From Pseudomonas putida (GTDB taxonomy: Bacteria; Pseudomonadota; Gammaproteobacteria; Pseudomonadales; Pseudomonadaceae), in assembly GCF_002741075.1 (NCBI RefSeq), contig NZ_CP016634.1:1504501-1568500 (forward strand): 64,000 nt of DNA, given 5' to 3'. Positions within the stretch are counted from its first letter, which is position 1. Every line of letters begins with the position of its first letter. This document shows positions 1-17,094 of the stretch, piece by piece. The notes below the pieces were generated by a model, which was given only the letters and a program-made list of their open reading frames with translations, made no database searches and was not told where the DNA came from. A program made the translations under genes and the position numbers.

Positions 1-912
1 TTCCGCGTCTCGATCATGCCGAGCATCTTCGGCGAAGATGCCGTGCTGCGGGTGCTGGACAAACAGGACCTGTCCGACCGGGTCAGCGGCGTGCAGTTGC
101 AGGCCCTGGGCTTTGCCGACCACACCCTGGTGGCCCTGCGCCGCCTGGCTGCCGAGCCCTACGGCATGATCCTGGTCACTGGCCCCACCGGCAGCGGCAA
201 GACCACCACCCTCTACGCCATGATCAGCGAGATCAACCACGGCGTGGACAAGATCATCACCATCGAAGACCCGGTCGAGTACCAACTGCCGGGTGTGTTG
301 CAGATCCCGGTCAACGAGAAGAAGGGGCTGACCTTCGCCCGGGGCCTGCGTTCGATCCTGCGCCATGACCCGGACAAGATCCTGGTCGGTGAGATCCGCG
401 ACCCGGACACCGCTCAGATCGCCGTGCAATCGGCCCTGACCGGGCACCTGGTGTTCACCACCATCCACGCCAACAACGTGTTCGATGTGATCGGCCGCTT
501 CAGCCAGATGCAGGTCGACCCCTACAGCTTCGTCTCGGCGCTCAACGCCGTGCTGGCCCAGCGTCTGATTCGTCTGGCCTGCCCGCACTGTGTGGTCCAT
601 GCCGAGCCGGATGACGAAACCCTGGCCGCCTCGGGGCTGACCCGCGAAGGCGTGGCCGGATGGACTTTCGTTCGCGCCCAGGGCTGCGGCCAGTGCCGTG
701 GCAGCGGTTACCGCGGACGCAGCGCCATCGCCGAATTGCTGCACCTGGATGACGACCTGCGGCAGATGATCGTCGAGCGCCGGCCCCTGTCGCAGATCAA
801 GTCGCTGGCCTGCCAGCGCGGTCTGCGCCTGCTGCGCGCCTCTGCCCTGGACCTGGTCCGCGAGGGCCGTACCACGCTTGAGGAGATCAACCGTGTCACA
901 TTTATCGCTTGA
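1..912 (+). CDS. gspE: GspE/PilB-family secretion ATPase (5' end outside window)
   Basis: Hexameric cytoplasmic ATPase that powers assembly of a pseudopilus in type II secretion or type IV pilus-like machines. The frame is open from base 1, so the protein begins upstream and only its C-terminal 303 residues are visible. Seen here: the Walker A motif GPTGSGKTT encoded at 181-207, the Asp box and Walker B region ending in VGEIRDPDTAQ near 388-420, the His box TGHLVFTTIHANN, and a zinc-type tetracysteine (CPHC then CGQC about 35 residues later), as in GspE of type II systems. It overlaps the next gene by 20 bases. No GspF-like inner membrane platform gene is in the window; it may lie upstream. 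Family assignment is firm; whether the machine is a secretion system or a pilus is not settled by this gene. Confidence 0.93.
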   Translation, partial: FRVSIMPSIFGEDAVLRVLDKQDLSDRVSGVQLQALGFADHTLVALRRLAAEPYGMILVTGPTGSGKTTTLYAMISEINHGVDKIITIEDPVEYQLPGVLQIPVNEKKGLTFARGLRSILRHDPDKILVGEIRDPDTAQIAVQSALTGHLVFTTIHANNVFDVIGRFSQMQVDPYSFVSALNAVLAQRLIRLACPHCVVHAEPDDETLAASGLTREGVAGWTFVRAQGCGQCRGSGYRGRSAIAELLHLDDDLRQMIVERRPLSQIKSLACQRGLRLLRASALDLVREGRTTLEEINRVTFIA

Positions 913-1675
913 TCGCTATTGCGCCGTGCTCGGCGCCGAGGGTGTCGGCCTGGGTCGCTGGCACGCCAACCAACACCAGTGGCTGGGCAGCCGCGCGTTC
1001 ACCTGCGACCCCGCCCAGCCGGCCTGGGCACCGGCACTGGAGGCCCTGGCCGAGCTGCTGGCCGAGCATGCGCCACGGGGTGCCCAACTGCGGGTGCTGC
1101 TGTCGGCACGCTACAGCCGCTTCTGCCTGGTGCCGTGGAGCGACGCCATCGGCCATCCACGTGAGCTGGACGCCTACGCCCGGGCCTGTTTCGAGAACCT
1201 CTATGGTCAGTCGCTGGACGACTGGCGCATCGTGCTCTCGCCAGAGCCGGCAGGGGCCTCGCGCATCGCCACTGCCTTGCCTGAAGCGCTGTTGCAGGCC
1301 TTGCAGGCACTGGGCCGGGAGAGTCGCCTGAGCCTGCGCTCGGTCCAGCCTTACCTGATGGCTGCCTACAATCGCTGCTCGGCGCAACTGGAGGAGGGCG
1401 ATTTTCTCTTCGTGCTCGCCGAACCACGGCGCAGCGTGTTGCTGCTGGCTGCCGGGGGCGCCTGGCAACAGGTACTGGCCCAAGGTTGCGCTGACAACGA
1501 CCAGGCGCTGCAGGCGTTGATCGAGCGCACTTGCGAGCTGTATGGCGAGCATCTGCCCAGGGTTTACCTGCATGCGCCGGGGCGGGGGGATGTGCCTCGC
1601 TTGGCCGCCGTGCAACTGTGCCAGCCGGCAGGCGACAGCGACCCGCTGTGCGCCATGTGGCGGGCGGTGGCTTGA
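893..1675 (+). CDS. PilM/GspL-N-like protein of the secretion cluster
   Basis: A 260-residue protein without signal peptide or obvious membrane segment. By position (directly after the ATPase and before PilN- and PilO-like genes) it is the probable cytoplasmic PilM/GspL actin-like component that couples the ATPase to the inner membrane. Sequence similarity to PilM is weak by eye; the assignment rests on gene order. I chose the GTG at 893 because a GAGGAG at 880-885 sits seven bases before it; a TTG at 878 in the same frame would lie on that ribosome site. The start lies inside the end of the ATPase gene, which suggests translational coupling. Confidence 0.6.
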   Translation: MSHLSLDRYCAVLGAEGVGLGRWHANQHQWLGSRAFTCDPAQPAWAPALEALAELLAEHAPRGAQLRVLLSARYSRFCLVPWSDAIGHPRELDAYARACFENLYGQSLDDWRIVLSPEPAGASRIATALPEALLQALQALGRESRLSLRSVQPYLMAAYNRCSAQLEEGDFLFVLAEPRRSVLLLAAGGAWQQVLAQGCADNDQALQALIERTCELYGEHLPRVYLHAPGRGDVPRLAAVQLCQPAGDSDPLCAMWRAVA

Positions 1676-1676
1676 C

Positions 1677-2219
1677 ATGCGCCGCCTCGATCTGGAATTC
1701 CAGCCAGCCCCCAGCAGCCCGATCGCCTGGTCGCTGTTGGCCCTGGGGTGCGCCGTACTGGCAGCGATGCTGCTGGTCGAGCAGCACTTGCAGGACGAAC
1801 AAGCGGACCTTCAGGCCCGGGTCCACCTGCTCGAACAGCAACTGGGGCGCCGCCCGCTCAGTGCTGCCCCCCAGAGCAGCGCCGCCAGCCTCGAGCAGGC
1901 CGAACAGCTGGCGCAGATGCGCAGCGTCTCTGAGCAACTGCAACGGCCCTGGCAACAACTGTTCGCCATGCTCGAGGGCATGCCCCAGGAAGACGTGGCG
2001 CTGTTGAGCCTGACCCCCGATGCACGCAAGGGTCAGGTCCGTATCGCCGCCGAAGCCCGCGACCTGGAAGCCATGCTGCAGTACCACCAGCGCCTGGAGC
2101 GCAGCGAGGAGTTGCGCGATGTCTCGTTGCTCAACCACGAGGTAGTGGCTGGCCAACCTGAGCATCCGGTGCGCTTCAACCTGACCGCTACCTGGGAGAC
2201 CGGCCATGCGCGTCCCTAG
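1677..2219 (+). CDS. PilN/GspL-C-like membrane protein
   Basis: A 180-residue bitopic protein: short cytoplasmic N-terminus, one membrane segment at about residues 16-36, a coiled-coil-like stretch rich in Gln, Glu and Leu at about 37-60, then a small periplasmic domain. This is the layout of PilN and of the C-terminal part of GspL. It starts one base after the previous stop and its own end overlaps the next gene by 14 bases, so it is part of one operon. The role is inferred from topology and from its place between a PilM-like and a PilO-like protein. Confidence 0.65.
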   Translation: MRRLDLEFQPAPSSPIAWSLLALGCAVLAAMLLVEQHLQDEQADLQARVHLLEQQLGRRPLSAAPQSSAASLEQAEQLAQMRSVSEQLQRPWQQLFAMLEGMPQEDVALLSLTPDARKGQVRIAAEARDLEAMLQYHQRLERSEELRDVSLLNHEVVAGQPEHPVRFNLTATWETGHARP

Positions 2220-2757
2220 CCTGATACTCCACGAACGCCTTGCGCGCCTGGGCCGTGTCGGATGCGCCGCAGCCGCCGTCGGCACGCTGGCGCTGCTGGT
2301 CGGTGTCACCTGGGTACTGCCGCAATGGCAGGTCGTGCGCGAGCTGCGGGCCAGCGAGGCCGATGCCGAAGTGCAGGTGCAGCGGGTCAAGCGCGGCGAG
2401 CTCAAGGTGGCGGTCCAGCCTGAGCAGCAGGCGCTGGACAGTCTGCGTCAGCAACTGCCCGGCCAACCCCAGGCCAGCGAGCTGATCGAGCGCCTGTATC
2501 ACCTGGCCAGCGCCCAGCGCATCAGCCTGGCCCGTGGCGAATACGCCCTGGGCGTCGACCCGAAGACTCAACTGGCGCGCTATCAGATCGTCCTGCCGGT
2601 ACGCGGCAGCTACCCGCAGATCCGTGGCTTTCTCCAGGCGCTGCTTGGCCAGGTACCGACCCTGGTGCTCGAAGACCTGGAGCTGCAACGCAAGCGCATC
2701 GGTGAGCGCGAGCTCAACGGTCGCCTGCGCATGACCCTTTACCTGTCGAGGTCGTGA
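2206..2757 (+). CDS. PilO/GspM-like membrane protein
   Basis: A 183-residue bitopic protein with a membrane segment near residues 17-38, a Glu/Gln-rich helical stretch at about 45-75 and a C-terminal ferredoxin-like periplasmic domain containing the phrase LPVRGSYPQIRGFLQALL, which is typical of PilO. PilO pairs with PilN in the inner membrane alignment complex. The start overlaps the previous gene and the stop overlaps the next by one base (TGATG). Topology and operon position support the call. Confidence 0.7.
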   Translation: MRVPSLILHERLARLGRVGCAAAAVGTLALLVGVTWVLPQWQVVRELRASEADAEVQVQRVKRGELKVAVQPEQQALDSLRQQLPGQPQASELIERLYHLASAQRISLARGEYALGVDPKTQLARYQIVLPVRGSYPQIRGFLQALLGQVPTLVLEDLELQRKRIGERELNGRLRMTLYLSRS

Positions 2758-3260
2758 TGAACACTCAGCGCGCGGTGATGTGGGTCGGTTTTCTCGGGCT
2801 TTCAGGCGCTCTGGCCTGGGCGCCAGGGCATTGGTTCGGCCAGCAGGACAGTGTCGAGCCCCTTGCGGGTAAACCCGCTGCCACGACAATCAGCGCCCAA
2901 ACAGAACCTGTGGGTTTACCCGTGAAGGGAAAAACACAGGCCTCAACCGACCTGTTCCCGGCCCAGCAATGGACCGCGCCAAAAACCATGGCCACCGTCA
3001 CTGAGCAACCTGTTGCTGCGGCGCCGGTGGTGGAGGCCGCACCCACCGCCCCGGTGCTGCCGTTCCAGTTCGTCGGCCGTTTGGGGGATCGCGACGACCT
3101 GCAGGTGTTCCTGCAGAGCGGCGAGAAACTCTACGTCGTGCGTCAGGGCGATGTGATCGAACACACCTACCGCCTGGACCGGATTTCGGCCACCGAGCTG
3201 GACCTGGTCTACCTGCCTTTGCACCAGTCACAGACGTTGTCTGTCGGGAGCGCACCATGA
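2757..3260 (+). CDS. GspC/PilP-like periplasmic linker protein, carrying an in-frame REP palindrome
   Basis: A 167-residue protein with one N-terminal membrane segment (about residues 7-24), a Pro/Ala/Thr-rich linker and a small beta domain at about 102-160 (from PFQFVGRLGDRDDLQVFLQ), as in the homology region of GspC and PilP that contacts the secretin N0 domain. Bases 2861-2930 are a REP palindrome like those found between genes elsewhere in this window, here read in frame and encoding part of the linker (PLAGKPAATT ... VGLPVKGK). The ATG at 2757 was taken because GTG 2754 adds only one residue. The stop overlaps the secretin start (ATGA). Confidence 0.72.
   Translation: MNTQRAVMWVGFLGLSGALAWAPGHWFGQQDSVEPLAGKPAATTISAQTEPVGLPVKGKTQASTDLFPAQQWTAPKTMATVTEQPVAAAPVVEAAPTAPVLPFQFVGRLGDRDDLQVFLQSGEKLYVVRQGDVIEHTYRLDRISATELDLVYLPLHQSQTLSVGSAP
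2861..2930. repeat. REP palindrome inside a coding sequence
   Basis: Inverted pair CTTGCGGGTAAACCCGC and GGGTTTACCCGTGAAGG separated by about 30 bases. The same cores occur in noncoding DNA at several other places in this window. Here the element is within the linker of the GspC/PilP-like gene and keeps the frame open. Confidence 0.8.
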
Positions 3261-5113
3261 AGCCTTCGAAGTTGTGCAAGCCTGCTCCGTTCATGATGCT
3301 GGCGTTGTGCGTGGCCCTGGCGGGCTGCGGCTCCAGCGGTACGCGCAAGGACAGCGCCGAACTGATGAAGGAGGGCCAGTATGAGGCGGGCATCGCCATG
3401 CTGGAGAACGCCCTGCGGGAGGACCCGCGTGACACCGAGCTGAACATCGCCCTGGCACATGGCCGCCAGCAAGCCGTCGAGGCGCTGCTGACCCAGTCCG
3501 ACGCCGACCGTATCCGCCATGATTTTGCCAGCGCACGCATGGGCTATGGCCGGGTCCTGACCATCGAACCGAACAACCGTCGGGCCCAGGAAGGTATTCG
3601 CCAGCTGGAACTGGTGCGCAACCTCGACGAGCGCGTGGCCATGGGCCAGGCGGCGCTGCGCCAGGGCGATCTGTTCGGCGCCGAGCGCTATATGCGCGAT
3701 GTGCTGCGCCTGGATCCGCAGAACCAGAAGGGCATTGCGCTTCGCAGCGACATCGAGAACGTCCAGGCGCGCACCGCGCAGCCGTTCCCGCAGTTGCGCA
3801 GCAAGCTGGAGCGCCCGGTGACCCTGGAGTTCCGTGACGCCAACCTCAAGACCATCTTCGAGGTGCTGTCCCAGGTCGCCGGGATCAACTTCATCTTCGA
3901 CAAGGACCTGCGCCCGGACATGAAAGCCACCATCTTCGTGCGCGATGTGCGCATCGAGGACGCCGTGGCCCTGCTGCTGGAGCAGAACCAACTGCACCAG
4001 AAGATCGTCAACGACAACACCCTGCTGATCTACCCCGACTCGCCGCAGAAGACCAAGGACTACCAGGAACTGGTCATGCGCACGTTCTACCTGACCAGCA
4101 TCGACGCCAACACCGCGCTGAACATGGTCAAGACCATGCTCAAGACCCGCGATGTGTTCGTGGACGAGCGCCTGAACACCCTGACCATGCGCGACACCCC
4201 CGATGCCATTCGCATGGCCGAGAAGCTTTTGCAGTCCCAGGACCAGTCCAACCCGGAAGTGGTCCTGGAAGTGGAGGTGATGGAGGTGGCCCGGTCGCGC
4301 ATCCTGGACCTGGGCCTGCAATGGCCGAGCACCTTTGGCGTGCTCAACGATGAGGGCAACCCGGTCAGCGTGCTCGACCAGCTGCGCGGCATCGACTCCA
4401 GCCGTATCAGCATCGCCCCGGCGCCCCAGGCCAAGATCAACGCCGCCGACAAAGACATCAACACCCTGGCCAGCCCGGTGATCCGTGTCAGCAACCGTGA
4501 GCAGGCGCGCATCCACATCGGCCAGCGGGTGCCGATCATCAGCGCCACGTCGGTGCCGTCGACCCAGGGCCCGGTAATTACCGAGAGCGTCACCTACCTG
4601 GATGTGGGTCTGAAGCTCGAAGTGCAGCCCACCGTGCACCTGAACAACGAAGTGGCGATCAAGGTAGCCCTGGAAGTGAGCAACGCCACCCCGCTGGAGC
4701 CGACTCGCCAGGGCACCATCCCGGTTCAGGTCGATACCCGCAACGCCCAGACCAGCCTGCGTCTGCACGATGGCGAGACCCAGGTGCTGGCAGGCCTGGT
4801 ACGCAACGACCTGACCTCCAGCGGCAACAAGATCCCCGGCCTTGGCGACATCCCCGGCCTGGGCCGGCTGTTCGGCAGCAACCGCGACGACAAGAGCAAG
4901 TCCGAGCTGGTGCTGGCGATCACCCCGCGCATCGTGCGCAACCTGCCGTACCAGAGCCCGTCGGACATGGAGTTCGCCACCGGCACCGAGTCGAGCCTGC
5001 AGGTGCGCCAGCAGATGATGGCTCCGGTCGCGCAGCCTGAGGCCGAGCCGACCCAGGGTGCGGTCGCCACCGTGCCGGCCGCGGTCACCACCCCGGTGGG
5101 CCCACGGCCATGA
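3257..5113 (+). CDS. Lipoprotein secretin with N-terminal TPR-like repeats
   Basis: Outer membrane secretin, 618 residues, the channel of the secretion or pilus-like machine. Order of parts: lipoprotein signal ending in LAGC (Cys24), TPR-like helical repeats at about 30-170, a secretin/TonB N-terminal (N0) domain at about 180-245, an N1-type domain at about 265-345, and the secretin beta-barrel domain at about 345-575 with the signature VPIISATS...GPVITESVTYLDVGLKLEVQP split over the gate region and the typical end GDIPGLGRLFGSN. TPR plus lipoprotein secretins resemble MshL/PilQ-type and non-classical GspD proteins rather than canonical XcpQ. It overlaps both neighbours by four bases (ATGA), so it is translated with them. 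A lipidated secretin may not need a separate pilotin. Confidence 0.88.
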   Translation: MKPSKLCKPAPFMMLALCVALAGCGSSGTRKDSAELMKEGQYEAGIAMLENALREDPRDTELNIALAHGRQQAVEALLTQSDADRIRHDFASARMGYGRVLTIEPNNRRAQEGIRQLELVRNLDERVAMGQAALRQGDLFGAERYMRDVLRLDPQNQKGIALRSDIENVQARTAQPFPQLRSKLERPVTLEFRDANLKTIFEVLSQVAGINFIFDKDLRPDMKATIFVRDVRIEDAVALLLEQNQLHQKIVNDNTLLIYPDSPQKTKDYQELVMRTFYLTSIDANTALNMVKTMLKTRDVFVDERLNTLTMRDTPDAIRMAEKLLQSQDQSNPEVVLEVEVMEVARSRILDLGLQWPSTFGVLNDEGNPVSVLDQLRGIDSSRISIAPAPQAKINAADKDINTLASPVIRVSNREQARIHIGQRVPIISATSVPSTQGPVITESVTYLDVGLKLEVQPTVHLNNEVAIKVALEVSNATPLEPTRQGTIPVQVDTRNAQTSLRLHDGETQVLAGLVRNDLTSSGNKIPGLGDIPGLGRLFGSNRDDKSKSELVLAITPRIVRNLPYQSPSDMEFATGTESSLQVRQQMMAPVAQPEAEPTQGAVATVPAAVTTPVGPRP

Positions 5114-5583
5114 AACGCCAGCAGCAGGGGTTCAGCCTGGTCGAAGTGGTGGTGACCCTGGCATTGCTCGGGTTGCTCGCCAGCATGGCCGCGCCCCTGA
5201 CCGAAACCGTGGTGCGCCGGGGCAAGGAGCAGCAACTGCGTGAGGCGCTGTACCAGATCCGCGATGCCATCGATGCCTACAAGCGTGCCTTCGATGCCGG
5301 CTATATCGAAAAACGCCTGGACAGCAGTGGCTACCCGCCGAGCCTGGATGTGCTGGTGGAAGGGGTGCGCGACGTGCGCAGCGCCAAAGGGGCGAAGTTC
5401 TACTTCCTGCGGCGCATCCCCCACGATCCGCTGGTGGCGGCCAAGCGCGAGGACGAGGGAGGCTGGGGCCTGCGCGCCTACGACAGCAGCGCCGACAACC
5501 CGCGCGATGGCAAGGACGTCTTCGATGTGTATTCCAAGGCCACCGGTACTGGCCTGAACGGCATCCCTTACGGGCAATGGTGA
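5110..5583 (+). CDS. gspG: Type II secretion pseudopilin (GspG-like)
   Basis: A 157-residue pseudopilin. It has a short basic leader ending in Gly, then FSLVEVVVTLALLGLLASM, the type III signal peptide with Phe+1 and Glu+5 processed by a prepilin peptidase. After the N-terminal helix comes a domain with the GspG-like phrases LDVLVEG and FYFLRRIPHDPL. A major pseudopilin builds the periplasmic piston. Its start overlaps the secretin stop (ATGA). Confidence 0.85.
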   Translation: MKRQQQGFSLVEVVVTLALLGLLASMAAPLTETVVRRGKEQQLREALYQIRDAIDAYKRAFDAGYIEKRLDSSGYPPSLDVLVEGVRDVRSAKGAKFYFLRRIPHDPLVAAKREDEGGWGLRAYDSSADNPRDGKDVFDVYSKATGTGLNGIPYGQW

Positions 5584-5588
5584 CGGTC

Positions 5589-5963
5589 ATGAAACGCAAC
5601 CGTGGCTTTACCCTCATCGAACTGCTGGTGGTCATGGCGATCATCGCCACCCTGATGACCATCGCCTTGCCGCGTTATTTCAACAGCCTTGAGGCCTCCC
5701 GCGAGGCCACGCTGCGCCAGAGCCTGGCCGTGCTGCGCGAGGCCTTGGACCATTACTACGGCGATACCGGCCATTACCCCGAGTCCCTGGAGCAACTGGT
5801 GGAGCAGCGCTACCTGCGCAACACCCCGGTGGACCCGATCACCGAGCGCAGCGACGCCTGGCAACTGGTGCCGCCGCCGGAGGGTGTGACCGGTGGGGTG
5901 GCCGATATCAAGAGCGGGGCAACGGGGAGGGCGCGTGATGGCAGCCTCTATGCCGAATGGTAA
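5589..5963 (+). CDS. Second GspG-like pseudopilin
   Basis: A 124-residue pseudopilin with leader MKRNRG and mature start FTLIELLVVMAIIATLMTIA, so Glu+5 is present. The C-terminal part has the GspG-like phrases HYPESLEQLVEQRYLRNTPVDP and a terminal DGSLYAEW. It starts five bases after the preceding stop; ATG 5577 in the same frame would add four residues before the leader. It is shorter than the first pseudopilin and could be either the major subunit or a minor one. The next gene starts inside it. Confidence 0.83.
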   Translation: MKRNRGFTLIELLVVMAIIATLMTIALPRYFNSLEASREATLRQSLAVLREALDHYYGDTGHYPESLEQLVEQRYLRNTPVDPITERSDAWQLVPPPEGVTGGVADIKSGATGRARDGSLYAEW

Positions 5964-6465
5964 GGCCTGCGCGGGCTTCACTTATCTGGGCGTGCTGTTT
6001 CTGATCGCGGTCAGCAGCATGGCCCTGGCCGCCACCGGCACCCTCTGGGCCACGGCCGCCCAGCGCGAGCACGAGCGCCAGCTGCTGTGGATCGGCGGCC
6101 AGTACGCTCAGGCGCTGCGCAGCTACTACCGGGCATCACCGGGCCTGGCCCAGTACCCCCAGGCACTGGAAGATCTGCTGGAGGACAACCGCTTCCCATC
6201 GCCTCAACGGCACATCCGCCGCTTGTACCCCGACCCGATCACCAACGGCGAGGAGTGGGGCCTGATGCGTTCGGAGGACGGGCGGATCACCGGCGTCCAC
6301 AGCCGCTCGGACGCCACGCCCCTCAAACGCAGTGGCTTCGATGCGCAGTGGTCCGGCTTCGAGGGGCTCGAGCACTACAGCGACTGGCAGTTCGTCGCCG
6401 AGCAGCCCTTCGCCGAGAGCACCGGCGGTGCCCGTAGCCACAGCGGCCCGGGAGATACGCCATGA
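5938..6465 (+). CDS. Third pseudopilin-like protein lacking Glu+5
   Basis: A 175-residue pilin-like protein. The leader ends in ...CAG and the mature part begins FTYLGVLFLIAVSSMALA, with Gly instead of Glu at position +5. GspK, the tip pseudopilin of classical systems, also lacks Glu+5, so a tip role is possible (inference). The body has YPQALEDLLEDNRFPS...RRLYPDPITNGEEWGL, resembling the other two pseudopilins. I took ATG 5938, which overlaps the previous gene by 26 bases; ATG 5950 is a possible alternative. The stop overlaps the csgE start (ATGA), which ties the secretion genes to the curli genes. Confidence 0.72.
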   Translation: MAASMPNGKACAGFTYLGVLFLIAVSSMALAATGTLWATAAQREHERQLLWIGGQYAQALRSYYRASPGLAQYPQALEDLLEDNRFPSPQRHIRRLYPDPITNGEEWGLMRSEDGRITGVHSRSDATPLKRSGFDAQWSGFEGLEHYSDWQFVAEQPFAESTGGARSHSGPGDTP

Positions 6466-6863
6466 AATCGCTTGCCGCGCTGTGCTGCCTGTACCTGCTG
6501 CTGGCCTTGCCTGGCGCCCCAGCCCGTGCCGACGCCGAAGACGAGATGAAGGGCTTCATCGTCGACAACACCATCTCGCACATCGGCCATGACTTCTACA
6601 ACGACTTCACCGACCGCCTGCGCGCCACGAGCCGCCTGGATTTCAACCTGGTAGTGCGCGAACGCCCCGACGCCCGTTGGGGCAGCCTGGTGACGGTGGA
6701 ATACGAACGCGAGGTGTTGTACCGGCGCTTCCTGCCGCCCAACACCACGCAACTCAAAGACGAGGCCGTCGCGGCGGCGGACCTGGTCAAGCAGCAGATC
6801 ATCCAGCGCAAGCTGCAACGGCTGCTGCAGGACACCACTGATCTGGAGAGGGACGAGCTATGA
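6462..6863 (+). CDS. csgE: Curli assembly factor CsgE
   Basis: Periplasmic 133-residue protein that delivers curlin subunits to the CsgG channel and caps it. An N-terminal signal peptide (about residues 1-23, ending in PARADA) precedes the conserved CsgE body with GFIVDNTISHIGHDFYNDF and QLKDEAVAAADLVKQQI. Length matches the family. It overlaps the pseudopilin gene before it and csgF after it by four bases each. Confidence 0.92.
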   Translation: MKSLAALCCLYLLLALPGAPARADAEDEMKGFIVDNTISHIGHDFYNDFTDRLRATSRLDFNLVVRERPDARWGSLVTVEYEREVLYRRFLPPNTTQLKDEAVAAADLVKQQIIQRKLQRLLQDTTDLERDEL

Positions 6864-7279
6864 GCAACCACATTTCCCGGTGCGTCGCCGTCTGCCTGCT
6901 GGCCGGCGCCTTCGCCGGTCACGCCCAGGCCACGGAGCTTGTGTACACCCCGGTCAACCCGGCGTTCGGCGGCAACCCGCTCAACGGCACCTGGCTTTTG
7001 AACAACGCCCAGGCGCAGAACGACCATGACGACCCAGACCTCAAGGACCGTGCCTCGGCCTTCGCCGGCACCTCGGCCCTGGAGCGCTTCAGCAACCAGC
7101 TCGAATCGCGGCTGTTGTCCCAGTTACTGGACAACATCAACGACGGCAAGACCGGCAGCCTTTCTACGGATTCGTTCCTGATCGATGTGATCGACGATTC
7201 CGGGGCCCTCAGCATCAAGGTCACCGACCGTGCGACAGGGGAAGTCTCGATCATCGAGGTCAGCGGCCTGAACCCCTGA
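6860..7279 (+). CDS. csgF: Curli assembly factor CsgF
   Basis: Surface-exposed 139-residue protein that binds CsgG and anchors the nucleator CsgB at the outer membrane. Signal peptide at about residues 1-24, then the CsgF hallmark LVYTPVNPAFGGNPLNGTWL, whose N-terminal part inserts into the CsgG pore in the known structure. The start overlaps the csgE stop (ATGA). Confidence 0.93.
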   Translation: MSNHISRCVAVCLLAGAFAGHAQATELVYTPVNPAFGGNPLNGTWLLNNAQAQNDHDDPDLKDRASAFAGTSALERFSNQLESRLLSQLLDNINDGKTGSLSTDSFLIDVIDDSGALSIKVTDRATGEVSIIEVSGLNP

Positions 7280-7308
7280 GAGGGAAGGGTCAATAGGGGA
7301 GAACGACC

Positions 7309-8148
7309 ATGAAACGCTTGCTGAGCACACTGCTGATCCTCACCACCTTGCAAGGCTGCGGCCTGCGCGAGCCGATGCCCGCCGAACAGGATACGGAGAC
7401 CCCGACCCTGACCCCGCGTGCCTCGACCTACTACGACCTGATCAACATGCCACGGCCCAAGGGCAGGCTGATGGCGGTGGTGTATGGCTTCCGTGACCAG
7501 ACCGGCCAGTACAAGCCGACCCCGGCAAGCTCCTTCTCCACCAGCGTCACCCAGGGCGCGGCGAGCATGTTGATGGACGCCTTGAGCGCCAGCGGCTGGT
7601 TCGTGGTCCTGGAGCGCGAAGGCCTGCAGAACCTGTTGACCGAGCGCAAGATCATCCGCGCTTCGCAAAAGAAACCCGACGCGCCCTTGAACATCCAGGG
7701 CGAGTTGCCACCCCTGCAGGCGGCCAACCTGATGCTCGAAGGTGGCATCATCGCCTACGACACCAACGTGCGCAGTGGTGGGGAGGGGGCTCGCTACCTG
7801 GGGATCGACCTGTCCCGCGAGTACCGGGTTGACCAGGTGACCGTGAACCTGCGGGCGGTGGATGTGCGCAGCGGCCAGGTGCTGGCCAACGTGATGACCA
7901 GCAAGACCATCTACTCGATCGGCCGTAGCGCCGGGGTGTTCAAGTTCATCGAGTTCAAGAAGCTGCTCGAAGCTGAGGTGGGCTACACCACCAACGAACC
8001 GGCCCAGCTGTGCGTGCTCTCGGCGATCGAGGCAGCGGTGGGGCACCTGTTGGCCCAGGGCATCGAGCGCCGGTTGTGGCAGGTGGCGGATGCAGGGGAG
8101 GGTAATGCGCAGGTGGACAAGTTCCTGAGCCAGAACCAGCAGCCGTGA
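7309..8148 (+). CDS. csgG: Curli secretion channel CsgG (lipoprotein)
   Basis: Outer membrane lipoprotein, 279 residues, forming the nonameric pore that exports curlins. The lipobox LQGC lies at about residue 17; the mature part contains VVYGFRDQTGQYKP and SASGWFVVLEREGLQNLLTERK, both typical of CsgG. It follows csgF by 29 bases with a good ribosome site (AGGGGAGAA), so csgEFG end the secretion operon. After the stop there is only a REP region, then the convergent alkB. Confidence 0.95.
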   Translation: MKRLLSTLLILTTLQGCGLREPMPAEQDTETPTLTPRASTYYDLINMPRPKGRLMAVVYGFRDQTGQYKPTPASSFSTSVTQGAASMLMDALSASGWFVVLEREGLQNLLTERKIIRASQKKPDAPLNIQGELPPLQAANLMLEGGIIAYDTNVRSGGEGARYLGIDLSREYRVDQVTVNLRAVDVRSGQVLANVMTSKTIYSIGRSAGVFKFIEFKKLLEAEVGYTTNEPAQLCVLSAIEAAVGHLLAQGIERRLWQVADAGEGNAQVDKFLSQNQQP

Positions 8149-8150
8149 TG

Positions 8151-8254
8151 GCCTGTGCCGGCCTCTTCGCGGGTAAATCGGAGCGCCGAACCGCCGCTCC
8201 CACAGGGATCGCATCGCGCCTCAGGGCAGCGGTGTGCCTGTGGGAGTGGGAACA
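8151..8254. repeat. REP-type inverted repeat between csgG and alkB
   Basis: Degenerate pair of REP cores (CCTCTTCGCGGGTAAATCGG and CCTGTGGGAGTGGGAACAG) in the convergent gap between csgG and alkB; it may help end or stabilise the transcripts. Confidence 0.6.
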
Positions 8255-8274
8255 GCCCAGCCCTGTGTCTACCG

Positions 8275-9195: not shown

Positions 9196-10641
9196 CTACT
9201 GCTGGGTGACGATGGCAGTGTTGGTGCTGCCGTATTGGGTGATGGCGGCGTTCTGGTTCATGTTGCTCTGGGTGACGGTGGCCAGGTTGCCGGTGCCGCC
9301 CTGGGTGACATAGGCGACGTTGGCGACATCGCTCTGGGTGATGTTGGCCGTGTTGCCACTGCCATACAGCTGGTAGGTGTAGCTCTGGTTGCCCTGGCCG
9401 GACTGGTCGAGGTTGATGACGTTGCCGCTGCCGGCGCTCAGGCCCTCGGCGTAGTTGCCGCCGTCACGTTGGGCGGCGATGAGCAGGTTGTCGCTGCCGT
9501 TCTGTTCGAAGTACAGCTCGTTGTTGCCATCGACCTGGTTGGTTTCCATGGTGTTTCGGTTGCCTTTTTGCTCCAGCTTGGCCAACTGGTTCATGCCTTC
9601 CTGGTTGAAGTTGACGCTGTTGCCGTTGCCGTTTTGCTTGATCTGGGCTTTCTGGTCGCTGCCGAACTGGCCACCGAACTTCTCGCCCTTCCAGTTGCTG
9701 GCCATGACCTTGTTGCCATTGCCGATGGTGTCGATGGTCAGGCTGTGGTTGTCACCGGTCTGGTAGGTGAAGTGCAGGTTGTCCTTGCCGTTCTGGGTGA
9801 TGTCGACCACCGAGTTGTTGGTCTCGAACTGGTCCGACCAACTGGCGTTGCGCTGGCCGCTCTGGGACAGGTGGGCGGAGTTGGCCTCGCCGAAGCTCTG
9901 GTCGATGTAGCCTTCGTTGAGCTGACCTTGCTGATAGACACTGGCCTGGCTGGCGACCTGGGTGTCCTGCCACACCTCGACGGAGTGGCTGCTGCCGACC
10001 TGCTGGATGTCGAGGGTACCGCCCAGGCCGTTGCGCTGGTCGCCGTAGGCCCAGCTGGCCTGACCCTTCTGCTGGATACGGATGTCGCCGTTATCGTGGA
10101 GGATATGCTCGGAGGCGGCGGTGTTGCCGGTACCTTCCTGCATGATCTGGGCGCGGTTGTTGGTGCCGCCGATCAACTGCTCGACCACCGCATCGTTGGC
10201 ACTGCCTTGCTGAAGCGTGGTCGCCTGGGCCCCGGTCTGGAACTCCTGGAACACCTTGGACATGTTGCCGGTGCCTTGCTGGACCTGCAGCACCTGGTTG
10301 TCCTGGCCCAGCGACTGGCTGGAGAAGTTGTCGTTGAGGGTGCCGCCGGAGCGCTGGATGGTCTTGCTGCCGTTCTCCATGATCTGGTCGGCGTAGCCGG
10401 CGTTGTAGGAGCCGGTGGCGCTCTGGCTGATGTCGCTGGTGCTGGAGTCCTGCACGGCGAGGTGGTTGTGGCCCTGGCCGGTCTGGTCCTGGGTGACCGA
10501 GGCGTAGGGGGCGACGGCCTGCAGGACTTCGGCGATGTTCGCCTTGCCCTGCTGGTTCTGAGTCGAGGTGCTGTCATCGGCCATGACCTGGCCGGCGATC
10601 GCCAGGACAACGGCGGCGCTTAAGGGAGCGAGCTTGAACAT
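9196..10641 (-). CDS. csgA: Major curlin CsgA, long form with about 20 curlin repeats
   Basis: Secreted amyloid fibre subunit, 481 residues with a signal peptide (about 1-20, ending VMA). The rest is made of roughly 20 imperfect 22-residue curlin units of the type Q-x-G-x-x-N-x-A-x-I-x-Q, for example SGNTANITQSDVANVAYVTQ, ending in IVTQQ. E. coli CsgA has 151 residues and five repeats, so this is an extended version, as also seen in other pseudomonads. The ATG at 10641 has GGAGG seven bases upstream; a longer frame starting at 10692 would run into csgB. Minus-strand gene behind csgB, 16 bases after it. Confidence 0.92.
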   Translation of the reverse strand: MFKLAPLSAAVVLAIAGQVMADDSTSTQNQQGKANIAEVLQAVAPYASVTQDQTGQGHNHLAVQDSSTSDISQSATGSYNAGYADQIMENGSKTIQRSGGTLNDNFSSQSLGQDNQVLQVQQGTGNMSKVFQEFQTGAQATTLQQGSANDAVVEQLIGGTNNRAQIMQEGTGNTAASEHILHDNGDIRIQQKGQASWAYGDQRNGLGGTLDIQQVGSSHSVEVWQDTQVASQASVYQQGQLNEGYIDQSFGEANSAHLSQSGQRNASWSDQFETNNSVVDITQNGKDNLHFTYQTGDNHSLTIDTIGNGNKVMASNWKGEKFGGQFGSDQKAQIKQNGNGNSVNFNQEGMNQLAKLEQKGNRNTMETNQVDGNNELYFEQNGSDNLLIAAQRDGGNYAEGLSAGSGNVINLDQSGQGNQSYTYQLYGSGNTANITQSDVANVAYVTQGGTGNLATVTQSNMNQNAAITQYGSTNTAIVTQQ

Positions 10642-10657
10642 GGTGGTGCCTCCAGGT

Positions 10658-11140
10658 CTAACGGTATTGAGTGATCTGAACATGTTGGCCATTGCCAGCC
10701 TGGGTCACGGCGCTGGTCAGCCCCGTGCCGCTCTGCTGGATGCTGGCGGTGTTGTAGTTGCCGAACTGCTCGATCGACGCGCTGTTGTTGCTACCGCTCT
10801 GGCGGATGGCAGCGTTGTTGCCCTGGCCCTGTTGCACGATCGAGGCCATCAGGTCGCTGCCTTCCTGCAGGATGTACGCCTCCTGCGCCCCCCCGGCCTG
10901 GACGATCCGGCCCAGCAGGGCCTGACCGTTCTGGTCGAGGGCGGCGCGGTTGCCCGAACCTTGCTGCTCGATGACCGCCATCTGGCCGGCACCTGCCGGG
11001 ATCAGACGCACGATCACCGGTTCTCCCAGGTCGTTGCCGAGCGCAAGGTCGGCGTTGTCCATCAGGTCGTCGGCCCAGCTGGGCTGGAGGGCCTGGCCCG
11101 CCAGGGCCAGGCAGAGCAGCAGTGGATTCAGGCGTTTCAT
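10658..11140 (-). CDS. csgB: Minor curlin / nucleator CsgB
   Basis: A 160-residue curlin with a signal peptide (residues 1-23, ending SWA), a 40-residue linker and about five curlin units (for example NNAAIRQSGSNNSASIEQFG). CsgB nucleates CsgA polymerisation at the cell surface with CsgF. It precedes csgA by 16 bases and follows the 743-residue secreted protein gene by 15 bases, so all are in one operon. Confidence 0.9.
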   Translation of the reverse strand: MKRLNPLLLCLALAGQALQPSWADDLMDNADLALGNDLGEPVIVRLIPAGAGQMAVIEQQGSGNRAALDQNGQALLGRIVQAGGAQEAYILQEGSDLMASIVQQGQGNNAAIRQSGSNNSASIEQFGNYNTASIQQSGTGLTSAVTQAGNGQHVQITQYR

Positions 11141-11155: not shown

Positions 11156-13387
11156 TTACTGCAGCCTGACCGGCACGGTGCGAACAGTGCCTTGGCTGGT
11201 ACGGATGGTCGCTGACGGCGTGGCGGTCGGTACCAGGGTGGTGCTGTTGCTCACGATCACCCGCCAGCGTCCGGTCAGTGGTACTGCGGTGCTGCCCAGG
11301 GTCACCAGACCGTTACGGGTGGTCACCTGCACCGTGACGGTGTTGCCGGTGGTCACCGAGGACGTGCCGCTGATGTCCCAGTTGTAACGGTTGTTGGAAC
11401 GTGCGGTGACGGTTGCCGCGGTGACCGTGAGGGTCTCGGTCGGCGGCTTGGGCGACACTTGCACGGTGACGGTGCCATTGCCGGATAGCGCGCCGATCGA
11501 GTCACGCGCCACGTAGGTGAACGTGGTGGTGAACGGCGCGGTGACCGTGGCCGGTGGCGTGTAGGTAACCGTGGTGCCGTTGTGGCTGACCGTGCCGCGA
11601 CCGACCGGAGGCTGAGTGACACTGGCCACGGCCAGCGGCAGGTTGCCTTCAGGGTCAGTGTCGTTGGCCAGCACGTTGATGGTCAGCGGTACGCCCAGGG
11701 TCGCCACGCTGTCGGCGACAGCGGTCGGTGCACGGTTGGGCACGACGTTGACGGTCACCGTGGCCGGTTCGGACTTCAGCCCTTTGGCGTCCTGGGCGCG
11801 GTAGCTGAAGATCGCCGGGAAGGCCGTGGTGGCACCGACAGGCGGGGTATAGGTCACCGACGTGGTGCCATTGAGAGCCACCGTCCCCAGGCCTGTACCC
11901 GGTTGGGTGAGGTCGGTGATGGTCAGCGGCATGTCGCCATCGGGGTCGGTGTCGTTGGTCAGCAGGTTGAGGGTCAGCGGCACGCCGACACTGGTCCCGC
12001 CGACATCGGCCTGGGCCAGCGGCGGTTGGTTCTCGGCCGTGACCGGCGCATTACCGACCACCGTCACCGGCTCGACGTCACTGCCGCCACGGGCGGATTT
12101 GACCGTCACGGTGGCAGGGGGCTGGGTCAGATCGGTGACGGTCAGGGTCTGCAGCGTGCCGGACTTGGACAGGCGCCCATAGCCCTGGGCGACTAGGTCC
12201 GGTATCTGCACTTCATCACTGGAGCTGGCTTCGATCACCAGGCGTTTGCTGGCCCAGTCGAAGCGGGCGGTACTAACTTTCACCACGTCGCTGAGCTTGC
12301 TCGACAACGCCGTTGGCCGGGTACCGCCTGCGGTGCTGCTGGCGGTGACCACCACCACCGAAGGCGGTGCGGTCTGGTTCAACTGCTGGCTGAAGAACAG
12401 TCCGCTGTTGTCGGATAACAGGTTGAACTCGCAAGGCGAGGGTGGGCTGCCGACCAACGCCAGGCCATAGCGCATGCACAGGCTGGCATCGCTCGGTGCC
12501 TTGGCGAACACCTCGACGCGGGTACCGTTGCCGTTACGTTGATAGGTGGCACGCTCCAGGTTCACAGGTGTCTGCGCGCGTGGGTCGAGCACTTTGCCCG
12601 AGAGCGTGAACACGTTGGTCTGGATGTGTCCGGCCGGGCCGTCGATGGCCACGAAGTTGGTATTGAACGGGCTGCCGGTCACTGCCTCGGTGATATTGGG
12701 GTCGCCGATGAAGGTCTCGGTGGCGCCGGTGTCCGGGTTGAGCTCGGTATAGAAGCCCGTGGCGCTGCGCAGGAACGGCCCGATGTCGCCTTTGAGCGCG
12801 CCGCTGAAGTCACCCGGCGCGCCAATGCCGATGTCGCGGGTGATGTTGATCGCGCGCCGGCCGGGGGTGTTGACGACCACGGTTTCGACGCCGTAGGGGT
12901 GGGTGATGCGGTAGGTGCCGGCGGTCGGTACCGAGGCGCGGATGCGGATCCGGGCGAAGCTTTGCTGGTCGCCATCGACCGGGTTCTCGGCGGCGAAGGC
13001 CGCTTCGATGCCCGCGACGTAGACTTCCAGTTCATAGCCGCTGTTGCCCACGGCAGGAATCGAGGTTTCGGCCAGGAACCAGAACATCTCCGGCGGCCAG
13101 TTGTCCGGGAACACCAGCGGCAGCGTGTCGTCATACACGCCCGGCTCCGGCAGCAAGGTGCACATGTAGGCAGGTGCTCCGGGTGCGCCAGGTGCCCGTG
13201 AGCTAGTAGCACGCGACTGGCACAGCTCCAGCGACAGTTCGCTGGCGTCCTTGTACCACATCGGATAACCGCCGGTGGCCAGGGTGTAGGGGCCTGGATC
13301 GACCTCGGTGAGCGCAGCCGATACCGCGCCGCTGAGAGAGAGGGAAAGCCCGGCGGCGTAAAGTGCCCGGCGTGGCCAAGTGTTCAT
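11156..13387 (-). CDS. Secreted protein with curli-operon N-domain and Ig-like repeats
   Basis: A 743-residue exported protein with a signal peptide ending near SAVSAA. Residues from about 25 to 320 form a domain shared with the next gene upstream (PYGVET, RRAIN.TRDIGIG, LKGDIGPFLRS, EAVTGSPFNTNFV). The middle has a region with the phrase SSDEVQIPDLVAQGYGRL, and the C-terminal third has two cadherin-like/Ig-like units, each with an NDTDP-type motif (NLLTNDTDPDGD, NVLANDTDPEGN) and a YTPP strand, then a final beta domain. The family has no function that I recognise. The place between its paralog and csgB suggests a surface or fibre-associated partner of curli. Start ATG 13387 has AGGAGG upstream. 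Confidence 0.75.
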   Translation of the reverse strand: MNTWPRRALYAAGLSLSLSGAVSAALTEVDPGPYTLATGGYPMWYKDASELSLELCQSRATSSRAPGAPGAPAYMCTLLPEPGVYDDTLPLVFPDNWPPEMFWFLAETSIPAVGNSGYELEVYVAGIEAAFAAENPVDGDQQSFARIRIRASVPTAGTYRITHPYGVETVVVNTPGRRAINITRDIGIGAPGDFSGALKGDIGPFLRSATGFYTELNPDTGATETFIGDPNITEAVTGSPFNTNFVAIDGPAGHIQTNVFTLSGKVLDPRAQTPVNLERATYQRNGNGTRVEVFAKAPSDASLCMRYGLALVGSPPSPCEFNLLSDNSGLFFSQQLNQTAPPSVVVVTASSTAGGTRPTALSSKLSDVVKVSTARFDWASKRLVIEASSSDEVQIPDLVAQGYGRLSKSGTLQTLTVTDLTQPPATVTVKSARGGSDVEPVTVVGNAPVTAENQPPLAQADVGGTSVGVPLTLNLLTNDTDPDGDMPLTITDLTQPGTGLGTVALNGTTSVTYTPPVGATTAFPAIFSYRAQDAKGLKSEPATVTVNVVPNRAPTAVADSVATLGVPLTINVLANDTDPEGNLPLAVASVTQPPVGRGTVSHNGTTVTYTPPATVTAPFTTTFTYVARDSIGALSGNGTVTVQVSPKPPTETLTVTAATVTARSNNRYNWDISGTSSVTTGNTVTVQVTTRNGLVTLGSTAVPLTGRWRVIVSNSTTLVPTATPSATIRTSQGTVRTVPVRLQ

Positions 13388-13419
13388 GCTGCCTCCTTGA
13401 AGGCGGAGCCTTTGTCTGT

Positions 13420-14766
13420 TCATGGCACCAGCACCACGTCTTCGCTGTCGCTACCGCCGTTGTCGCTGGTGACTTGCACCTTCGCGGGCGGAATCGGCGA
13501 GAGCCCTGTGCTCAATGTCTTCACCGCGCCGTTGCCGGAGAGGCTGCCGATCAGCGTGCCGTTGCCGGTGCGGGCGACCATGGCGGGCGGCGAGGTCTCG
13601 TCGCTGCTGCTGGCGACCAGGGTCAGCTGGCCGCTGGCCAAGCTGTATTCGGCACGGGTTATCGTCACCAGGTCGGTCAGCGGCAGGTTCGCGCTGGTGG
13701 CGGTGCTGGTGGGGATGGCCACGCTGTTGTCCGCGGTGACGGTCATGGTGGTTGGCAGCGTCGGGTCGAGCGTCGACTGGGCGTACCAGGTGCCGGTCTT
13801 GTTGGCCTCGGTCAGCGGCAGGTTGGGCGACTGGCTGGTGAGGTTCACGGCGGCCGGAGGTGGGGGCGCCAGGACGAAGACATCTTGCTGGGCGCGCAGG
13901 TCGCCGTTTTCGGTGTGCTTGGAATAGGTGCTGCGCTGGGGCAGCAACGGGGTCGGTAGATTGACCGTGGAGAGTTTGCCGGACACCGCGAACAGTTCGG
14001 TGCGCAGGTCGATGCCATTGGGGCCTTCGATCCGCACGAAGTTGGTGTTGAACGGGCTGCCGGTCACGGCTTCGTTGAGGTTCGGGTCGCCGATGAACCG
14101 CTCGCTCGCCCCGGTGCTGGGGTTGGTTTCGGTGTACGGCCCATTGACGCTGCGCAGGAACGGCCCGATGTCACCCTTGAGCGCCCCGGTGAAATTGCCG
14201 GGCGAGCCGATGCCGATGTCGCGGGTCATGTTGATCGCCCGCCGGCCCGGGGTGGCCACGTCGAACACCTCGACGCCGTAGGGGTGGGTGATGATGTAGG
14301 TGCCAGCGGTGGGCACATCGACGCGGATGCGCACGCGGGCGAAGCTGATTTGGTCGCCTTCGAGAGGGTCGCCACCGCCGAACGCGGCTTCGATCGCCGA
14401 GACGTACCCCAGGTTGACCCCGCGGGCGGCGTCATTGATTGCGGCATCGGCGGTGAACCAGAACGCCTCGTCAGGGAAGTTGCTGGGGAAGACGATTGGC
14501 TGGGTGTCGTCGAACACGCCCGGGGTCGGCAGCAGGGTGCACATGTACGACGGCGCACCAGGCGCCCCGGCCACCCGCGAGCTCACCGCCTTGGTCAGGC
14601 ACAGGTCCAGTACCCGGCCATGGGTGTCCTGGTACCACGCGGCGAAGCCGCCGTTTTCCGGTGTGTAGGTGCCCTGGTCGACCGCATTGAGGGCGGCCTG
14701 GGCGGGAAGCTGGAGCATGCTGGCGAAGATCGCCACTGCCAGCGGGTGGGGTATCGGTCGGTGCAT
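13420..14766 (-). CDS. Secreted protein, short paralog of the following curli-operon gene
   Basis: A 448-residue exported protein with a signal peptide ending PAQAA. Residues of about 25-290 match the N-terminal domain of the 743-residue neighbour almost phrase by phrase (APGAPSYMCTLLP, THPYGVE, TRDIGIGSPGNF, KGDIGPFLRS, NEAVTGSPFNTNFV). The C-terminal part has SSDETSPPAMVARTGNGTLIG, also shared, but it ends before the Ig-like repeats. First gene of the minus-strand operon, with a GGAGGG ribosome site and a perfect sigma-54 promoter 56-70 bases upstream. Function unknown; a curli-associated surface factor is the simplest inference. Confidence 0.75.
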   Translation of the reverse strand: MHRPIPHPLAVAIFASMLQLPAQAALNAVDQGTYTPENGGFAAWYQDTHGRVLDLCLTKAVSSRVAGAPGAPSYMCTLLPTPGVFDDTQPIVFPSNFPDEAFWFTADAAINDAARGVNLGYVSAIEAAFGGGDPLEGDQISFARVRIRVDVPTAGTYIITHPYGVEVFDVATPGRRAINMTRDIGIGSPGNFTGALKGDIGPFLRSVNGPYTETNPSTGASERFIGDPNLNEAVTGSPFNTNFVRIEGPNGIDLRTELFAVSGKLSTVNLPTPLLPQRSTYSKHTENGDLRAQQDVFVLAPPPPAAVNLTSQSPNLPLTEANKTGTWYAQSTLDPTLPTTMTVTADNSVAIPTSTATSANLPLTDLVTITRAEYSLASGQLTLVASSSDETSPPAMVARTGNGTLIGSLSGNGAVKTLSTGLSPIPPAKVQVTSDNGGSDSEDVVLVP

Positions 14767-14821
14767 GAGTCAAACCCTCCTGCAAACGAGCCCATCGGGT
14801 GGGGCGTCTGCACAGGGATCG

Positions 14822-14836
14822 GCAACAGCCGTGCCA
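14822..14836 (-). promoter_or_regulatory. Perfect sigma-54 (-24/-12) promoter of the curli structural operon
   Basis: Minus strand reads TGGCACGGCTGTTGC, an exact match to TGGCACG-N4-TTGC. The start codon at 14766 is about 45 bases past the expected transcription start. The rest of the 14767-15179 gap holds a weak REP-like pair (near 14972-15025), a dyad at 15119-15135 and the ribosome site of the activator gene. Confidence 0.82.
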
Positions 14837-17093: not shown

Positions 17094-17094
17094 C

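Follow-up and report, generated by a model that had tools for sequence, protein, structure and literature searches.

The window analysed here is a stretch of 64,000 nucleotides of Pseudomonas putida DNA (contig NZ_CP016634.1, positions 1,504,501 to 1,568,500; G000:C2:1504501-1568500 in our notation, in which G labels a genome and L a locus), taken from a genome of 5.85 Mb. Its beginning carries a run of genes, from gspE to csgG, in which the parts of a secretion- or pilus-type machine are joined to the curli genes csgE, csgF and csgG. A preliminary description of this DNA had recognized GspE-, PilM-, PilN-, PilO-, GspC/PilP- and secretin-like genes and three pseudopilin genes joined to csgEFG, and all of these are present and point in one direction, with overlaps or near-contacts throughout and a largest gap of 29 bases, between csgF and csgG. 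The run starts with gspE, encoding the ATPase of a type II secretion system (T2SS), whose 3' part occupies positions 1..912 (+ strand, like the rest of the run) and whose start lies 846 bases before the window (L002 11155-12912); its product matches T2SSE (408.7 bits) as well as GspE/PilB-type NCBIfam models, under their equivalog cut-offs. A PilM/GspL-like gene (893..1675, with a GTG start at 893 set by eye) is named from its position and its conservation only, in 79 of the 80 named loci, by which we mean the best 80 of 369 relatives, whose species overlap with those of the genome sample used below. It is followed by a PilN/GspL-M-like gene (1677..2219; PF05137, 21.8 bits, just below the cut-off of 22.8), a PilO/GspM-like gene (2206..2757; T2SSM_b, 30.7 bits with a cut-off of 21.7, and PilO, 24.7 bits with a cut-off of 22) and a gene taken as PilP/GspC-like from its position (2754..3260), which has a match in 80/80 named loci. 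The secretin gene (3257..5113) encodes a lipoprotein-like product (lipobox recognized by eye) with a TPR N-terminus, STN and Secretin_N matches and a Secretin domain (137.6 bits), which remains below the NCBIfam cut-offs for GspD, PilQ and MshL. Two minor pseudopilins, pp1 (5110..5583; N_methyl, 33.7 bits) and pp2 (5577..5963; N_methyl, 41.1 bits, and T2SSG, 21.7 bits), each have a Glu at +5 in 79/79 cases, and the third pseudopilin, pp3 (5938..6465), has a Gly instead, with no Glu at this position in 79/79 named loci and no match in family scans. GspK proteins lack the Glu at +5, and pp3 is regarded as a GspK-like tip. The run ends with csgE (6462..6863; PF10627, 132.6 bits), csgF (6860..7279; PF10614, 117.4 bits) and csgG (7309..8148; PF03783, 271.1 bits).

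The junctions were read on the DNA. GspE and PilM overlap by about 20 bases (with the start set by eye), PilM and PilN are 1 base apart, PilN and PilO overlap by 14 bases, PilO and PilP by 1-4, PilP and the secretin by 4, the secretin and pp1 by 4, and pp1 and pp2 by 7 if the first ATG is used; pp2 overlaps pp3, and both the pp3/csgE and the csgE/csgF junctions are ATGA. The ATGA shared by pp3 and csgE and the overlaps through the run, already pointed out in the preliminary description, are thereby confirmed, and the 4-base overlap is found in 74 of the 75 named loci in which it was scored (72 ATGA and 2 TTGA, L190 being the exception), the other 5 of the 80 having no pp3-csgE pair to score. 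A consensus scan of positions 4900-8400 gave one terminator-like site on the - strand, and neither a sigma-70-like promoter nor a + strand terminator-like site. We infer that the machine genes and csgEFG are co-transcribed as one transcript.

A second run faces the first one on the minus strand and reads S448, S755, csgB, csgA. S448 (13420..14766) is a predicted all-beta protein, with a conserved domain of 250 residues followed by immunoglobulin-like (Ig-like) domains, and S755 (11156..13423) combines an S448-type domain with two Ig/cadherin-like repeats (Big_9, 84.2 bits), its N-terminal part being about 50% identical to S448. The csgB-like curlin gene (10658..11140; Curlin_rpt, 76.5 bits; CsgB model, 94.4 of 165) and the csgA-like curlin gene (9196..10692, with a start that may be at 10641; 498 aa; Curlin_rpt, 77.9 bits; CsgA model, 93.3 of 160) complete the run. 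The csgE, csgF and csgG products and the curlin-repeat proteins all score above the Pfam cut-offs, and csgEFG are ordinary members of their families. A gene for an AlkB-like 2-oxoglutarate-Fe(II) oxygenase lies between csgG and csgA (8275-8919, - strand) and adjoins csgA in L060 as well.

The DNA upstream of the window contains mnxG, a YVTN-type propeller gene, a SCO1/SenC sequence, a substrate-binding/cytochrome c gene, a SurA-like gene and a gene for a receiver-domain regulator (RR), after which comes gspE. The mnxG product (L126 12073-17919) is a multicopper oxidase of 1948 aa, identified by the NF041487 equivalog (3861.5 bits, cut-off 3100) and matching the solved MnxG structure 9bxa with an E-value of 3e-69. 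In P. putida GB-1, according to passages of PMC11409713, the operon reads mnxG, propeller, SCO1, SCO1, substrate-binding/cytochrome c, SurA. Relatives have the same order with all six genes whole (e.g. L106), whereas a single remnant (L002 7410-8080) stands for the SCO1 pair in the genome of the window; it is made of the start of the first gene and then the end of the second one in another frame, and may reflect a real deletion or an assembly fault. Of 20 regions fetched (L106-L125), 18 encode MnxG no more than about 18 kb upstream of the machine; the exceptions are L107, where mnxG is elsewhere in the genome, and L122. In a set of 36 hand-picked genomes, MnxG was found in 13/14 machine-positive and 0/22 machine-negative ones, and the substrate-binding/cytochrome gene of the mnx operon lies upstream in 74 of the 76 named loci with room for it. 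Some genomes have several copies of the oxidase: three MnxG homologues with 73-75% identity stand in a row in G150:C28:69576-87869, and L118 (G068) has two.

GspF and a true GspG were looked for inside the locus and not found. In the same genome, a gspG-gspF pair is located 462 kb from the machine (C2:1969.6-1971.4 kb, L034); its GspG passes the equivalog cut-off (192 bits vs 88.9), and its GspF matches T2SSF with 181.5 bits and TIGR02120 with 283 bits, for a cut-off of 424. Beside the pair, two sensor kinases and a sigma-54 response regulator are encoded, which, by family and by the description in passages of PMC11409713 only, have the make-up of MnxS1, MnxS2 and MnxR. Co-occurrence was assessed in one fixed set of 398 Pseudomonadaceae genomes, 68 of which encode the window secretin at 64% identity at least and are called machine genomes hereafter (7 weaker secretin matches of 31-37%, out of 75, were excluded). 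The unlinked GspF, counted as present at E <= 1e-90, is encoded by all machine genomes but one (67 of 68) and by 0 of the 330 others (table 67/1/0/330), the one without a match being a 100-contig draft (G137). In 42/67 genomes, no more than 40 kb (median 19 kb) separate the gspG-gspF pair from the secretin, the pair being beyond the mnxG operon in the loci read, so the wide split probably arose later, by rearrangement, in some members of the group; in the other 25, GspF is more than 40 kb away or on another contig and still tracks the presence of the secretin. The machine is thus, on its predicted parts, a split T2SS and not a pilus, and the co-inherited unlinked GspG-GspF pair defines it in full. 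Other GspF matches of the genome were rejected as its GspF: one, in L033, is PilC-like and adjoins a pilin gene, and two shorter matches lying together near another secretin were taken as Tad. A prepilin peptidase is available in the genome as a 307-aa frame after the pilC-type gene of L033 (Peptidase_A24, 87.8 bits; A24_N_bact, 108.3 bits). The pilin, pilC-type and prepilin-peptidase genes of this locus (G000:C2:3092.6-3095.3 kb) have no obvious pilB between them, as in the pilA-pilC-pilD cluster without pilB of strain WCS358 (passages of PMC4509608).

The two uncharacterised proteins that head the facing run follow the machine closely. S448, counted as present at E <= 1e-30, occurs in 70 of the 398 genomes. 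All machine genomes but G056 have it (67 of 68), against 3 of the 330 genomes without the machine (table 67/1/3/327), with nominal Fisher p values of 3e-71 and smaller for S448 and GspF. S448 is present together with the machine even if unlinked from it, as in G293, where they are 260 kb apart, and in 5 of the 6 machine genomes without csgE (G017, G033, G044, G050 and G093). This pattern fits a guess of the preliminary description, namely that the machine might serve the two presumed secreted proteins encoded in the opposite run. In L041, L070 and L071, gspG, gspF, S448 and S755 are contiguous, and 11 of 27 S loci have a gene for a MnxS-like kinase no more than 2 kb from S448. The csgB-csgA pair follows S448-S755 in 18 of the 27, and 8 of the 9 loci without it come from genomes with no csgE match. 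The closest named relatives of S448 are from a P. putida metagenome-assembled genome (97%) and P. guariconensis (95%). No Pfam or NCBIfam family matched S448, and a profile search of 368 other genomes of the class, including one from the same family, found no S448-type domain at E <= 1e-10; class-wide profile matches outside its own genome are confined to the Ig/cadherin region, from profile position 429 upward. Both S448 and S755 have N-termini that look, by eye, like signal peptides. AlphaFold2 models of S448 have a mean confidence (pLDDT) of 89.6 for the whole protein and 93.8 for the N-terminal domain, and show a fold built of beta strands throughout, in which residues ~271-447 form the Ig-like domains. 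The N-terminal domain of about 250 residues has 39 invariant columns in an alignment of 45 rows of S448 and S755 domains (the S448 row of L065, which has a stop codon, was excluded) and found no confident fold match in structure comparison. These features fit a lineage-specific, secreted, adhesin-like protein, and nothing points to an enzyme. In L067, L068 and L069 (G062, G352 and G011) S448 and S755 are back to back with a kinase and a sigma-54 regulator like MnxS/MnxR, and L067 has a short gspG-like frame nearby.

The link of the machine with S448 is stronger than that with csgE. Among the 398 genomes, csgE is present in 138, of which 76 lack the machine, and is absent from 6 of the 68 machine genomes (table 62/6/76/254). 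Where both occur, their arrangement is far from random: the secretin and csgE are less than 6 kb apart in 58 of the 60 genomes holding both with known places (G098 and G112, of the 62, have no place for csgE in this count, G098 being adjacent in L045), and, of the 68 named loci with room, 64 carry csgE and csgG directly downstream of the machine. A CsgG tree of 38 rows, two of which come from one genome, places the 22 linked loci on one side of a branch and the 16 unlinked rows on the other (support 81/82, not starred). This branch and the kept pp3/csgE overlap suggest that the linkage between machine and csg genes is probably old and has been kept.

A scan for sigma-54 (-24/-12) type promoters, 30-166 bases upstream of genes and with a maximum score of 12, was run on distinct upstream stretches only, without duplicate rows of one genome. 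Sites with a score of at least 10 precede mnxG in 20/20 and S448 in 17/29 stretches (24/29 for S448 at a score of at least 9), compared with 0/100 and 4/100, respectively, for seven control genes (gspG, RR, csgB, csgE, HK488, s54RR and gspE) and about 0.4-2% of dinucleotide shuffles at 10 or above. The S448-S755-csgB-csgA run of the window has such a site, TGGCACGGCTGTTGCC, at 14821..14836 (- strand). Passages of PMC11930936 describe predicted sigma-54 and integration host factor sites and Mn dependence for PmnxG and PmcoA. On account of the shared sigma-54-type sites, the S448-S755-csgB-csgA run looks like a part of the same manganese (Mn) regulon as mnxG. Sigma-54 control of the machine operon itself was also considered and was rejected, for want of enrichment before RR, gspE, gspG and csgE. 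A PAS-containing sigma-54 activator without a receiver domain is encoded next to S448 (15180-17093, + strand), with similar genes in L056-L059, and is a possible extra regulator of the S operon. Further along the + strand (17017-20786), genes for an ATP-binding cassette exporter, an S8-peptidase-like protein and a tryptophan-halogenase-like protein stand in a row, which could be a peptide-modifying or export cluster.

P. putida GB-1 and KT2440 reportedly possess a Gsp-related pathway, Xcm, that is needed for the secretion of the Mn-oxidising factor. The mnxG operon and the unlinked gspG-gspF pair, both outside the window, explain the neighbourhood better than the preliminary description could, and we therefore read the machine as the T2SS of the Mn-oxidation system: the run is likely to be the main part of a dedicated, Xcm-kind T2SS that forms part of the machinery with which Pseudomonas oxidizes Mn(II). 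According to the mechanism that we propose, Mn(II) would be sensed by MnxS/MnxR-type regulators, which would switch on mnxG and S448-S755-csgB-csgA via sigma-54, and MnxG, S448, S755 and the curlins would reach the periplasm through Sec. A pseudopilus of GspG and pp1-pp2-pp3, driven by GspE and GspF, would then push folded Mn-oxidation proteins through the secretin, the cargo being most likely MnxG-type oxidases and/or S448/S755. In parallel, CsgG-CsgE-CsgF would export unfolded CsgA/B, and curli-like fibres would keep the oxidase, the S proteins and the Mn oxide at the cell surface. What would link the two exporters is when and where they assemble, and curli would not pass through the T2SS. 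The control of the machine by Mn, the export of MnxG and of S448/S755 and the scaffold role of curli are inferred, as is the co-transcription. S448 and S755 are, in our opinion, the best new candidates for cargo of the machine. More tentatively, and as a possibility that we would not yet favour over its negation, they may be the founders of a Pseudomonadaceae-specific family of T2SS-exported Ig-like proteins that, together with curli, form a scaffold holding the Mn oxidase and nucleating or retaining Mn oxide. If this is true, the T2SS-curli operon would encode two exporters that together build the matrix of a mineral coat.

Other explanations deserve consideration. The T2SS could export only Mn oxidases (MnxG, McoA), with S448 and S755 brought to the surface otherwise or remaining periplasmic, and co-inherited through the Mn-oxidation trait. 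The title of De Vrind et al. 2003 (Mol Microbiol 47:993), which names a Mn-oxidising factor as secreted, the persistence of S448 without machine and MnxG in 3 genomes and its proximity to MnxS-like kinases would agree with this, whereas the position of S448 directly after gspG-gspF in L041, L070 and L071, the signal-peptide-like N-termini and the Ig-like domains, common in secreted proteins, would not; we hold this explanation to be rather unlikely. The proposal of the preliminary description, that the machine helps to export or position curli fibre parts, is not supported. The conserved pp3-csgE overlap and the CsgG branch are in its favour, yet the genomes in which csgE and the machine occur one without the other, the loss of csgE from the named loci L153, L183 and L197 and the unlinked csg genes of G061 oppose it. 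Moreover, csgE, csgF and csgG are all present, and CsgF-CsgG is described as the curli secretion channel (PMC6957492). Export of curli via the T2SS is neither needed nor indicated, and we consider it very improbable.

That the machine could be a type IV pilus or a fibre machine like that of mannose-sensitive haemagglutinin (MSHA) is suggested by the resemblance of the PilM/N/O-like genes and the TPR secretin to MSHA and type IV pilus clusters, and by the 100 bits that the MshL profile scores on the secretin. This score is well under its cut-off (TIGR02519, 250.2), as is that of PilQ (TIGR02515, 151 vs 284); in addition, the slot of the major pilin is filled by an equivalog GspG and there is no PilT-type retraction ATPase among the scanned locus genes, making a pilus a highly improbable solution. 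It is just as hard to see the neighbourhood as a hitch-hiking genomic island whose parts are functionally unrelated. All of them could move as one block, and this block is broken up in P. putida-type genomes, including that of the window with its distant GspF; the parts are nevertheless co-inherited when apart, as the far GspF genes illustrate.

Several observations weigh against a dedicated T2SS of the Mn(II)-oxidation machinery as the explanation. Family scans (Pfam and NCBIfam for the PilM-like protein) gave no match for the PilM-like and PilP-like proteins. With just a remnant of the two SCO1 genes in its mnxG operon, it is uncertain whether this strain oxidizes Mn. G056 (L038, L122) encodes the secretin and GspF and gave no match for S448, MnxG or csgE, and L183 and L197 (Pseudomonas sp. 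R37 and B28), which retain the machine, gspG, SCO1 and the substrate-binding/cytochrome gene and appear as partly reduced versions, lack csgE at the locus and gave no match to mnxG over the 10 kb upstream; the machine may therefore have other cargo. S448 occurs without machine or MnxG in G011, G062 and G352, and is within about 10 kb downstream of the machine in just 15 of the 57 named loci with room, this linkage being often lost. The Fisher p values are nominal, because the genomes are related. No sigma-54-type site at a score of at least 9 precedes 5 of the 29 S448 stretches, and none beyond background was found before RR, gspE, gspG or csgE, so that joint regulation of the machine is a hypothesis.

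If Xcm has the gene order attributed to it (see below), the central observation of the preliminary description was published in 2003. The coupling of a T2SS with csg genes is ordinary, and the candidate cargo is the interesting part. Passages of three later papers cite De Vrind 2003: a second T2SS was found in WCS358 with the Xcm cluster of GB-1/KT2440 as bait (PMC4509608), the general secretory pathway is listed among genes important for Mn oxidation (PMC3056050), and Mn oxidation is named as a T2SS function in P. putida (PMC3521999). Curli are recorded in P. putida F1 (passages of PMC3521004), and "type II" is absent from the main text of this article, as are "secretion" and "curli" from those of PMC11409713 and PMC11930936 and "secretion" from that of PMC8218464. 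In searches of the openly licensed literature, with most subscription papers outside its scope, nothing was recognizable as S448/S755, and no co-occurrence study of the machine turned up. Within that literature, the co-inheritance of the split machine, the S448/S755 partners with their sigma-54 sites and the machine lineages without csg are new. To our knowledge, the Xcm cargo is known only as a "Mn-oxidising factor", and the near-perfect co-inheritance of S448 (with S755) names concrete candidates for cargo or scaffold, which bear on why and how bacteria acquire a coat of manganese oxide. It also explains the position of the curli genes next to the T2SS: both seem to belong to a single Mn-linked gene set, not to a single exporter. 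If S448 and S755 are unrelated to export, the locus is an ordinary orthologue of the system published in 2003.

The closest known counterpart is Xcm itself. It is said to have an xcmT1-xcmS pair (GspG, GspF) apart from the rest, and the pseudopilin genes xcmT2, xcmT3 and xcmX reportedly stand beside the csg homologues csmE, csmF and csmG. The same anatomy, with a split gspG-gspF pair and pseudopilins beside csgE, csgF and csgG, is found here, and pp3 is presumably XcmX; relatives of pp3 are annotated as "type II secretion system protein" or similar, and none as XcmX among the 120 matches listed. To this picture we add the co-inheritance across 398 genomes, the upstream mnxG operon, S448/S755 and the machine lineages without csg. 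The mnxG operon with its MnxS/MnxR regulation, described for P. putida GB-1 and for DSV-1/MS-1, is another counterpart, with its gene order and sigma-54 promoter in common with the DNA studied here. In strain DSV-1, 17 gene numbers separate mnxS1 (698) from SurA (716) (passages of PMC11409713 and PMC11930936), a gap into which 13 + 4 genes of the run described here would fit exactly. With curli (type VIII) secretion the locus shares csgE, csgF, csgG and curlin-repeat subunits; it differs in that the curlin genes face csgEFG and come after S448-S755, and in its CsgA-like protein of 498 aa. A divergent relative, L049, has all T2SS parts in one locus, with a gene for a GbpA-like lytic polysaccharide monooxygenase (LPMO), a neighbour known for other T2SS (passages of PMC3521999), between the minor pseudopilins and gspG. 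This system, like that of L050, has a related secretin (33%), pp2/pp3, GspG, GspF and GspE; unlike that of the window, it occupies a single locus, has the LPMO neighbour (scanned in L049 only) and lacks csg. Such a different T2SS-type secretin (31-33% identical) occurs in six genomes of the same genus (G269 and G283, with L049 and L050, G313, G320, G333 and G349). Compared with the Xcp and Hxc T2SS, finally, the machine has the same set of predicted functional parts, the assignment of its inner-membrane platform (GspL/M and GspC) being tentative, whereas its secretin and GspF are under the GspD and GspF equivalog cut-offs and its F and G components are encoded apart.

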